Shown: in pieces, positions 17,939-30,456 of the stretch
Numbering within the stretch: the stretch's first letter is position 1
Layout of the letters: the number at the start of each line of letters is the position of its first letter
Source of the DNA: Terribacillus halophilus
Lineage (GTDB): Bacteria; Bacillota; Bacilli; Bacillales; Amphibacillaceae
Assembly (NCBI RefSeq): GCF_900162685.1
Contig: NZ_LT727828.1
Location: 646,824-710,823, forward strand
Direction of reading: 5' to 3'
DNA: 64,000 nucleotides
Position numbers and translations under genes: made by a program
Notes under the pieces: model-generated
What the model saw: only the letters and a program-made list of their open reading frames with translations
The model's database searches: none
Told to the model about the DNA's origin: nothing

Positions 17939-18736
17939 TCAAACAGCCGATTGCCGATATTGTATCGGTGATTGGTTGTTTAGTTTCGTTTGGATACGAA
18001 TATTGTTATAATAATAAATATATTCTTCAACAGTACGTTCTACGATGGCAGTCGAAGTTCGATTTATGCTGTTAAGATAGAATGTTTCAGACTTTAGTAT
18101 GGAATGAAACGATTCGATAGAGGCATTATCAGCGGGCGTTCCTTTTCGGGACATACTCATGGTAATGCCTTTTGCTTTTACAGCTTCTTGGTACTTATAA
18201 GATGTGTACACCGACCCCTGATCACTGTGTAATATGCAGTTCTCAGGCAATGGTGGCAGCTGATCGAGTGTCTCCAACACGAAAGCTGTATCTTGTTTAT
18301 CTCCAATAGAGGACGCCACTACTTCGCCATTGCACAAATCTATTATACTGGAAAGATACATTAGTTTCTGACCATAAGGCAGGTATGTAATGTCGGTTAC
18401 GAGCTTCTCAAGAGGACGATCAGACTGAAAGTTCCGATCCAATAAATTTTCTGCGACGGCATATGGCTGTCCAGTTTTCTTACGTTTCTTCACTTTAACC
18501 CGGCACTGCCATTGATTCTCCTGCATTACTCGCTGCACGACTTTGTGGTTAATGCATTGCTCCTGTCTCAGTAAGGCAGTAATCTTTCTGTAACCGTACC
18601 GATACTTGTGTTCTCGGCACAATATGCCAATTTGCTTTTTAAGTAGTTCTTTCGAATCGTCTTTCTCTTTGTTCTTCCAGCGATAATAAGATGCTCTCGA
18701 GATACCTAAATGTACACAAATATCCTGTATTGTCAT
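17939..18736 (-). CDS. IS3-family transposase OrfB (DDE integrase domain)
   Basis: From the internal ATG the protein has 265 residues. It carries an N-terminal HTH_21 segment (ICVHLGISRASYYRWK), and the rve-type catalytic core has Asp115 (VTDITYLP), Asp172 (HSDQGSVYTS) and Glu208 (ASIESFHS), giving the D(35)E spacing of IS3 elements. The frame is open upstream of the ATG to the A AAA AAG site at 18805-18811. The real product is therefore probably an OrfAB fusion made by -1 frameshifting, in which residues VELVESLHNTMTIQDI precede the HTH. Confidence 0.93.
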   Translation of the reverse strand: MTIQDICVHLGISRASYYRWKNKEKDDSKELLKKQIGILCREHKYRYGYRKITALLRQEQCINHKVVQRVMQENQWQCRVKVKKRKKTGQPYAVAENLLDRNFQSDRPLEKLVTDITYLPYGQKLMYLSSIIDLCNGEVVASSIGDKQDTAFVLETLDQLPPLPENCILHSDQGSVYTSYKYQEAVKAKGITMSMSRKGTPADNASIESFHSILKSETFYLNSINRTSTAIVERTVEEYIYYYNNIRIQTKLNNQSPIQYRQSAV

Positions 18737-19478: not shown

Positions 19479-20666
19479 TTACAGATAATGACGCAGTGGC
19501 CGGAAAAGGATGCCAGTCAGCTTGGCGAGTAATCGGCGTTTTTGAAAGACAGCGATTGATGCCGAAATACTGGCCTGCTCATCTTTCTTCCAAAGTGCCA
19601 GCATCTGGGCATAAAAGAGGTCATTTTGGCGGATTGTGAGCGTGAGTTCCTTATTAATTAACAGACTCCGACCATCTAGATTAGCAGAACCAACCGCACA
19701 TCTTTCCCCGTCACTAAGCAAGATTTTAGCGTGATAAAAACCGTTTTGATACAAATTGACACGTATTCCATAACGGAGGAGCCGCCGTGCGAAGTGAAAG
19801 GATACTTGGTTAACGATGTAGTGGTCAACTTTGTAAGGTAAAAGCAGCCGAACATCCACACCACGGTCGGAAGCCCGCTTGAGGGCTGCTTCTACACGCT
19901 TCGTAGGAACGCAGTAAGGTGTCCCGATATAAAGATACCTTTTCGCTTGATGAATTTGATGCAGCAGCCAATCTTCATAACCATCTGCTTCGGTTATGAC
20001 AATTTCCACTTGAGCCCCGTCAAGTGCAGGAGCTTCTTTTGGAAACGTAGGAAAGCGCTGGCCCCAGTCGGAGGCGAATACTTGGACGAAGGTGTAAACA
20101 GCTTCTCCTTCCAGTTTGATGACGGCATCTCGCCAAAAACCAAAGCGCGGCTCCTTGCTCAAATACTCTTTCCCGATATTGAATCCCCCGACATAAACGG
20201 TCTGTTGGTCGATAATTGTCACTTTTCGGTGATTGCGGAAGTTAAGGTTATACAGCAGATAAGGAAAACGCGGTATATTGGCGAACCGCAGCATAACACC
20301 GGCCTGACGCAGAAGTCTGCGCTCTTTGCGCGGCAGCCGATAACCGCCTATTCTGTCCAGTAAGAAACGGATTTCAATCCCTTCCTGTGCTCGCTGTTTT
20401 AATAGTTCCGTCAGCTGCTGTGTTGGTTCATCCCATTTTACAAGAAAGAATTGAATGTCTACAGAATGCTTGGCAGCTTTTATATCACGTAGTAGTGCAT
20501 TATAAAAGCTGATACCGTCACCAAATAGGGAAATGAATGCTTGCTTATGGCCAATCAGCCGATTGACAGCCATTCTTTTGCTCTGCTTTTTGCCAAGTAA
20601 TAAATCCACCCATACTAGCACGGCTAAAAGGAACAAAAGCGCCAGCACAAGGAAGAAAATCGACAT
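19479..20666 (-). CDS. clsB: Cardiolipin synthase-type phospholipase D protein (ClsB/YwiE)
   Basis: The 395-residue protein has one N-terminal membrane helix (2-24) and two HKD motifs, HRKVTIID (about residue 146) and HAKILLSD (about 315), each followed by a G(F/S)xN-type segment. These are the two active sites of cardiolipin synthases, which join two phosphatidylglycerols. A second N-terminal helix seen in ClsA is missing, as in YwiE. Position between argS and rpoE is compatible with ywiE in B. subtilis. ATG follows AAAGGAGT. Confidence 0.88.
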   Translation of the reverse strand: MSIFFLVLALLFLLAVLVWVDLLLGKKQSKRMAVNRLIGHKQAFISLFGDGISFYNALLRDIKAAKHSVDIQFFLVKWDEPTQQLTELLKQRAQEGIEIRFLLDRIGGYRLPRKERRLLRQAGVMLRFANIPRFPYLLYNLNFRNHRKVTIIDQQTVYVGGFNIGKEYLSKEPRFGFWRDAVIKLEGEAVYTFVQVFASDWGQRFPTFPKEAPALDGAQVEIVITEADGYEDWLLHQIHQAKRYLYIGTPYCVPTKRVEAALKRASDRGVDVRLLLPYKVDHYIVNQVSFHFARRLLRYGIRVNLYQNGFYHAKILLSDGERCAVGSANLDGRSLLINKELTLTIRQNDLFYAQMLALWKKDEQASISASIAVFQKRRLLAKLTGILFRPLRHYL

Positions 20667-20699: not shown

Positions 20700-20729
20700 T
20701 TTACAAATATAGCCAATCTCATGTATGAT
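20700..20729 (+). promoter_or_regulatory. Sigma-A promoter of the rsgA-like leader
   Basis: TTTACA (20700-20705), an 18-bp spacer and TATGAT (20724-20729) put transcription start near 20736, some 210 bases before the GTPase gene. Confidence 0.6.
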
Positions 20730-20782
20730 AAGAACAAATCAACGCAATTCGGCAATGCCGGATGCAGAAAGGGATGATGTTT

Positions 20783-20851
20783 ATGTTGACACGTACGATT
20801 GAATTAAAGTTGTCCGTCGCAATGCACATCCCTTCTGTCTGGCTGAATTAA
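20783..20851 (+). CDS. Putative 22-residue leader peptide of the rsgA-like gene
   Basis: ATG at 20783 lies 9 bases after AAAGGG and opens 22 codons, beginning MLTRTIELKLSV and ending PSVWLN, with stop at 20849-20851. Its codons 15-18 contain the sequence GCACATCCCTTC (20824-20835), which can pair with the 5' arm of the terminator downstream. This suggests a regulatory uORF whose translation controls read-through rather than a protein with its own job. Confidence 0.5.
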   Translation: MLTRTIELKLSVAMHIPSVWLN

Positions 20852-20910
20852 CAGGGTATTCCTGTACTTTTCTAGCTTCTAGTGGAAGGGCTGTGCAAAC
20901 AGTCCTTTTT
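20824..20910 (+). promoter_or_regulatory. Transcription attenuator: mutually exclusive antiterminator and terminator
   Basis: The terminator is AAGGGCTGT (20886-20894), loop GCAA, ACAGTCCTT (20899-20907) and a T-run. Its 5' arm extended, GAAGGGCTGTGC (20885-20896), is complementary at 11 of 12 positions to GCACATCCCTTC (20824-20835) inside the leader ORF. A separate small hairpin, ACAGG / CCTGT (20851-20865), lies between them. Pairing of one form excludes the other. Confidence 0.65.
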
Positions 20911-20945
20911 ATTATGGCCAAAAAAGCTATCACTAGGAGGAAAAC

Positions 20946-30367: not shown

Positions 30368-30456
30368 CACGTTATGTGAGCTTTCACGACAGTTATCGGT
30401 CTCTCACAATAAACTCTGTTTCCAAAGGATTCAGGGCAAAAAGGAGTGCTTAACGT

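Follow-up and report, generated by a model that had tools for sequence, protein, structure and literature searches.

The 64-kb window of Terribacillus halophilus DNA analyzed here carries, behind the leader described in Table 1, a gene for an RsgA-type GTPase. RsgA matures the 30S ribosomal subunit and binds RNA within it. The predicted protein scores 164 bits against TIGR00157, for which the cut-off is 100, and scores too low for PRK12288 and PRK12289, two narrower RsgA models (184 versus a cut-off of 360, and 135 versus 483). Solved RsgA structures match it, with the P-loop, GKGKHTTT, DTPG, switch motifs and zinc-site cysteines all aligned. At the G4 motif it has SKGD in place of the NKAD and NKID of the two solved chains compared, and its nucleotide preference might differ. 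A canonical RsgA, 29% identical to this protein, is encoded elsewhere in the genome (G000:C13:2060186-2061019) by a gene whose start abuts the preceding ORF. By comparison of the two sequences, the gene in the window is thus an extra RsgA beside the canonical copy.

Relatives of this spare gene occur in 86 of 159 genomes of the family and 187 of 398 genomes of the class (E up to 1e-60), as well as in 140 of 72,556 plasmid records (E up to 1e-40). On the Lysinibacillus fusiformis plasmid pMGMM7 (L226, 5947-10191), a spare rsgA lies in a row with fosM, a HAD hydrolase gene and a methionyl-tRNA ligase gene; only a T-run, and no upstream ORF (uORF) led by a Shine-Dalgarno (SD) sequence, was seen upstream of this copy. 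A Brevibacillus plasmid copy has an SD-led uORF without a T-run. Elsewhere in the window, Rfam models match an rli23 RNA at 18038-18135 on the plus strand, antisense to a transposase-like ORF (17939-18736, minus strand), and an L31-Firmicutes ribosomal protein leader at 30414-30446 on the plus strand.

Table 1. Elements of the leader and the GTPase gene in the Terribacillus halophilus window
Feature	Position	Strand	Basis or detail
Sigma-A type promoter, TTTACA-18-TATGAT	20700..20729	+	10/12 matches; -35 20700-20705, spacer 18 nt, -10 20724-20729
Segment 1, anti-antiterminator that pairs with segment 2; uORF SD region AGAAAGGGATGATG	20766..20779	+	MFE fold; pairing p=0.010
uORF Shine-Dalgarno, AGAAAGG	20766-20772	+	Read from sequence
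uORF, 22 codons, MLTRTIELKLSVAMHIPSVWLN	20783..20851	+	ATG 20783, TAA 20849-20851; 22 codons in 10/10 genus genomes
Segment 2, in-ORF antiterminator segment GCACATCCCTTC	20824..20835	+	11/12 pairs with 20885-20896
Outer stem 5' arm CTTCTAGTG; the stem encloses the terminator	20876..20884	+	Fold; genus columns
Segment 3 GAAGGGCTGTGC, antiterminator partner, overlaps terminator 5' arm	20885..20896	+	Sequence; genus alignment
Intrinsic terminator, stem 20886-20894/20899-20907, U-run to 20910	20886..20910	+	Sequence, fold, terminator script
Outer stem 3' arm, overlaps SD of GTPase gene	20931..20939	+	Fold, pairing tests
Shine-Dalgarno of GTPase gene, AGGAGG	20935..20940	+	Read from sequence
Extra RsgA-type GTPase gene, 352 aa	20946..22004	+	TIGR00157 match; alignment with solved RsgA structures

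An earlier note on this DNA had described a promoter, an SD-led uORF of 22 codons and a terminator ahead of an extra RsgA-type gene, and all of these are present in the sequence, as is the 11-of-12 pairing that it reported between the uORF and the region of the terminator 5' arm. The terminator had been placed 34 bases before the ribosome-binding site; it actually lies ∼25 nt before the SD of the gene and ∼35 nt before its ATG. The promoter site alone is weak evidence, since a scan yields nine promoter-like sites versus 2.8 in shuffled sequences; across ten aligned genomes of the genus, the -35 hexamer is invariant and the -10 element reads TAT(G/C)AT in every case. If translation began instead at one of two in-frame ATGs further upstream (20774 or 20777), the uORF would have 25 or 24 codons. 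The terminator was found by folding and by a dedicated script and is missing from a simple terminator scan, which in our reading misses it by extending the stem into the U-run. It is unlikely to terminate an upstream gene. The upstream neighbors, a cardiolipin synthase-like gene (19479-20666) and IS genes, lie on the minus strand, and therefore the terminator belongs to the transcript of the GTPase gene itself.

The leader as a whole folds at -71.6 kcal/mol (z -5.25), and none of 200 shuffled sequences folds as well. Three competing pairings are seen in the fold: segment 1 with segment 2 (1:2), segment 2 with segment 3 (2:3) and the terminator (3:4). The 2:3 duplex has a computed energy of -20.1 kcal/mol (z -5.4). 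In addition, the outer stem covers the SD of the GTPase gene, a pairing that in the T. halophilus leader taken alone is not significant against shuffles (p=0.365). Formation of 2:3 places the 5' arm of the outer stem in the 2:3 loop, and so should free the SD of the gene as well.

This arrangement resembles leaders known from Bacillota to control ribosome-protection and antibiotic-resistance genes. In a study that tested the Bacillus subtilis vmlR leader by experiment, that RNA consists of an anti-antiterminator with a uORF, an antiterminator, a terminator and an SD-sequestering hairpin (PMC9226507). Lincomycin induces vmlR, with a stalled ribosome leading to read-through and an open SD; of three uORF variants, two match the wild type and the third performs less well (PMC9226507). 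The T. halophilus leader has the same four-part layout, and the SD of the vmlR uORF (AGAAGGG) is similar to that found here. As in leaders of the vmlR/hflXr type, a uORF with its own SD sits between promoter and terminator, the antiterminator overlaps both the uORF and a terminator arm, and an anti-antiterminator competes for the antiterminator. The two differ in that vmlR has a three-codon uORF, an ABC-F resistance gene and measured induction, whereas the present leader has 22 codons in its uORF and precedes an RsgA-type GTPase gene. On the features visible in sequence, the T. halophilus leader would work like that of vmlR. For hflXr of Listeria monocytogenes (lmo0762; PMC6310831) and the hflX uORFC-6-1 motif (PMC8632094), uORF attenuation likewise acts on a gene whose product is paralogous to a ribosome-associated GTPase. 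However, the hflXr uORF has 14 codons with an Arg-Leu-Arg (RLR) sequence, and HflX splits ribosomes (PMC6310831), a task different from that of RsgA stated above. The RLR motif of the hflX uORFC-6-1 leaders is absent from the uORF peptides of the ten genomes of the genus.

We consider it probable that this leader is a uORF-dependent attenuator of the vmlR type, under which the extra GTPase is made only once a ribosome has stalled early in the uORF. The proposal starts from observed features, namely the sequence elements, their potential to pair, the degree to which they are conserved and how much more often they precede orthologs than control genes, and it supposes translation of the uORF, stalling as the signal and a GTPase that answers translation stress. 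With no ribosome on the uORF, segment 1 would hold segment 2, which would leave segments 3 and 4 to pair as the terminator and the SD of the gene hidden in the outer stem. A ribosome running to the end of the uORF would cover segment 2, with the same off result. Conversely, a ribosome stalled at approximately codons 1-9 would cover segment 1 and not segment 2, and segment 2 would then be available to pair with segment 3. This pairing would block the terminator, so that the gene is transcribed, and would leave its SD open.

To examine how widely such leaders occur, we collected 201 regions upstream of spare-gene orthologs (193 distinct), comprising 10 genomes of the genus, 43 genome-contig loci, 60 other loci of the family and 88 loci of the class. 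Nineteen of the 89 matches of the family search were left out, and the class is represented by 88 of its 187 matching genomes, taken from the better-scoring matches. A strict search was made for SD-led uORFs of 14-34 codons, with no terminator required; scripts chose the control genes and called the starts of both genes and uORFs. Such uORFs are present in 145 of the 193 distinct ortholog upstreams, compared with 16 of 145 control genes from the same genome and 5 of 148 from other genomes; control genes needed 150 nt of free upstream sequence, which the orthologs did not. The orthologs are not independent, in that 69 of the 193 come from the window's own family, and 19 of 30 unnamed families contain at least one uORF carrier. 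Among Bacillota, 144 of 182 orthologs are carriers. Of the 11 upstreams counted as non-Bacillota, the sole carrier is L040, whose record is titled only "bacterium"; taxon labels given to genomes without a name are tentative. The uORF spans 18-26 codons in 132 of the 144 Bacillota carriers, with a mode of 22, whereas uORFs that occur by chance before control genes range from 15 to 30 codons. Neither a strict uORF nor a transcriptional attenuator was found before 32 of the 182 Bacillota orthologs, including five named Paenibacillus.

The competing pairings are enriched in the same way (100 shuffles for each ortholog and control). The 1:2 pairing reaches p≤0.05 in 88 of 193 orthologs and in none of either control set, and the uORF pairs at this level with the part of the leader downstream of it in 113 of 193, versus one gene in each control set. 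The two pairings reach significance together in 68 of 193 orthologs versus none and none in the controls, or, among uORF carriers only, in 68 of 145 versus 0 of 16 and 0 of 5. One of the 148 control genes from relatives (L238, 8960, plus strand) has an SD-led uORF with significant downstream pairing and is another attenuator candidate. A leader of this type precedes most of the examined Bacillota orthologs of the spare RsgA, which makes the finding larger than first reported.

The distribution of uORFs bears on the alternative that the RNA senses a protein or ligand, as a ribosomal-protein leader, T-box, riboswitch or autoregulatory target of the GTPase would, with the uORF being accidental. 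The stability of the fold and the ability of RsgA to bind 30S RNA are compatible with such a sensor, as is a RAGATH-7 match that overlaps the L083 leader, a hit far below threshold (24.7 versus 111.8 bits, E 0.2). However, Rfam models give no match at the T. halophilus leader at the gathering threshold, and apart from the RAGATH-7 hit there is no match up to E=1 on the leader in 16 leader-bearing loci, of which the T. halophilus locus is one. An accidental uORF also fits poorly with the frequency of SD-led uORFs before Bacillota orthologs and their rarity before control genes. We judge a sensing leader to be very unlikely.

A subset of the leaders conforms to the transcriptional arrangement seen in T. 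halophilus. We required an SD-led uORF, a terminator within 230 nt, and a duplex between an in-ORF segment and a terminator arm of -12 kcal/mol or lower at z≤-2. These features are found in 57 of the 201 ortholog upstreams, or 53 of the 193 distinct ones if any identical copy may qualify (52 if only the first copy is counted). Within the same genome they are found in 1 of 146 upstream regions, which is the target itself, and in 0 of the 145 others. Named carriers are Ureibacillus, Fictibacillus, Jeotgalibacillus, Pseudalkalibacillus and Bacillus sp. The peptides encoded by these uORFs vary, but in each leader the in-ORF segment suits its own terminator arm, a fit that was itself a criterion of selection. 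By 200 shuffles per leader, the 1:2 pairing is significant (p≤0.05) in 38 of the 53 distinct leaders, and the outer stem in no more than 30; in 48 of the 53, the best outer pairing extends to an SD-like stretch upstream of the gene. For the genus leaders in this test, the uORF start was sometimes an upstream in-frame ATG, which makes the offsets larger. Some of the 53 hits, such as L102, L138 and L192, look like chance.

The earlier note had made its reading depend on whether leaders of orthologs keep both the uORF and the pairing. All ten genomes of the genus carry the spare gene and keep both, together with the promoter, SD, 22-codon uORF length, segments and terminator arms, and GAAAGGGATGATG in segment 1 is invariant among them. 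Eight of the ten genus leaders reach z≤-2 in the pairing test, with L008 and L009 at -1.7. In the ten-genome alignment, 98% of the 120 cells in the 2:3 columns are paired, compared with 34-62% when the columns are slid, as are 100% of the 100 terminator cells and 93% of outer-stem cells (50-69% when slid). Segments 2 and 3 vary so little among these ten genomes that the 2:3 helix shows no double substitutions and the genus yields no covariation for it. Beyond the genus, the pairing is kept with different sequences. In one group of seven leaders (group A), the 2:3 helix is 94% paired versus 27-45% when slid, with double substitutions at two pairs. In another of eight (group B), it is 78% paired versus 20-40%, with double substitutions at five pairs, and the terminator and outer-stem columns are just 66% and 59% paired versus up to 59% and 53% when slid. 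A Fictibacillus-type group has double substitutions that keep 2:3 pairing at two pairs.

We used a partition-function model, computed at equilibrium with the footprint of the ribosome masked, to predict which stall positions favor the 2:3 pairing. For the T. halophilus leader, the probability of 2:3 is 0.34 without a ribosome, 0.76-0.84 with a ribosome at codons 1-9, 0.25-0.40 at codons 10-12, and at most 0.02 from codon 13 onward. The permissive stall would therefore span roughly codons 1-9. The model thus favors the proposal of the earlier note that an early stall is permissive, and moves the last permissive codon from 14 to approximately 9. For L012, the model predicts an on window of codons 1-4 only. 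Without a ribosome, the equilibrium probability of 2:3 in six genus leaders is 0.34, 0.52, 0.45, 0.87, 0.71 and 0.00, and it is at least 0.85 in L152, L022, L027, L188, L060 and L084. Because 2:3 is already likely without a ribosome in such leaders (for example, L007 and L152), the off state would have to come from the order of folding during transcription. The equilibrium model fits several relatives badly, and its predictions of default terminator formation are mixed between relatives.

This poor separation of on and off states in some relatives is compatible with constitutive termination, with a fixed level of read-through and the uORF serving as a non-regulatory buffer. Yet a simple terminator needs no mutually exclusive pairings, and these are kept in several groups despite changed sequences, which makes constitutive termination very unlikely. 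Also very unlikely is an amino-acid-starvation attenuator of the trp/ilv kind, stalled by the lack of one charged tRNA. The uORF, antiterminator and terminator are laid out as in such leaders, but there is no codon run, no residue of codons 4-9 is shared by every one of the ten peptides of the genus, part of codons 1-3 (MLT) falls within the 1:2 hairpin, 327 of 390 scored pairwise codon differences in the genus uORFs are nonsynonymous (0.84), and the downstream gene is not biosynthetic.

The uORF peptide is thus not conserved within the genus, and because it drifts, stalling in the uORF-dependent attenuator probably depends on the state of the ribosome rather than on a specific nascent peptide. 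The 8-mer CAGGAATC occurs in 13 leaders, where it is read in one frame in 10 and in another in 3. L148, L156 and L161 keep the element CAGGAATCCTCC entirely or nearly so in a different frame from leaders such as L092 and L145, encoding QESS versus GILL. The reading of the 8-mer in different frames and the high nonsynonymous share argue that selection acts on the RNA rather than on the peptide. This view is qualified by the tripeptide [E/Q][I/S/N]V, which occurs in frame in 36 of 145 uORFs, versus one and one in the other frames, and is possibly a stalling motif. Among these 36 uORFs, eight have a C-terminal QSV, one has the tripeptide at codon 2, and in 27 it starts at codons 5-10 (L022, L024, L032, L036, L077, L082, L086, L088, L091, L092, L093, L095, L096, L100, L103, L140, L141, L142, L145, L146, L149, L153, L162, L166, L170, L180 and L200).

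Many orthologs that lack a T-run also carry SD-led uORFs. A search for terminators with T-runs alone overlooks these leaders, which were revealed by reading 34 upstream regions by eye; in them, the in-ORF segment resembles or pairs with parts around the SD of the gene. Leaders of this kind, outside the transcriptional set, look translational. Such variants would hide the SD of the gene until a stalled ribosome shifts the fold, as do translational attenuators of the erm type, from which they differ in the gene controlled and in having no established stalling peptide. The hflXr study (PMC6310831) also mentions ermC. The stall model gives varied predictions for these RNAs. In the KMEERS-type leaders L067, L072, L074, L106 and L127, the SD of the gene is predicted to open at approximately codons 8-12, and the first four of these show a second predicted opening close to the stop codon or at it. 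In L117 and L121 the SD opens only once the ribosome is at the stop codon, the response is nearly flat across stall positions in L145, L162 and L164, and the SD is open by default in L032, L036, L140, L142 and L200.

Taken together, these data support the interpretation given in the earlier note, with refinements: in the modeled fold, a third segment, the SD region of the uORF, competes for the antiterminator and a second lock lies over the SD of the gene, and the switch before other orthologs looks translational. The note had also regarded a 30S maturation GTPase under such control as a translation-stress response not known to be described. The idea of an RsgA paralog in a translation-stress regulon has a precedent in Streptomyces coelicolor, where one of two RsgA/EngC genes (SCO6149 and SCO5211) is WblC- and tetracycline-dependent (PMC7157823); from the order in which they are named there, SCO6149 is read as the induced gene. 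The wblC gene is itself under uORF attenuation (PMC7157823). Unlike what is proposed for the spare rsgA, however, the Streptomyces gene, which is compared here as a paralog and not as an established ortholog, is regulated through a transcription factor and not by its own leader (PMC7157823). No description of a leader before rsgA was found in the titles, openings of abstracts and selected passages of the open-access papers listed. The device is of a known kind, and its rsgA target is apparently new, as far as this open-access search shows.

The leader suggests that the cell makes the spare RsgA only when its ribosomes are in trouble. More broadly, though this is somewhat less likely than not, the RsgA paralog may form a translation-stress arm of its own in most of the Bacillota that carry it. 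This 30S quality-control GTPase would be made only when ribosomes stall just after starting on a test ORF, through a transcriptional or translational version of one RNA switch that reads the position of the ribosome and not the peptide. We know of no explanation for the common spare RsgA genes, a large group of which would now be tied to a ribosome-position switch. This would add 30S maturation to the functions released by stalling, which include target protection, rRNA methylation and ribosome splitting, and orthologs with transcriptional or translational control would offer a natural experiment on the evolution of such switches.
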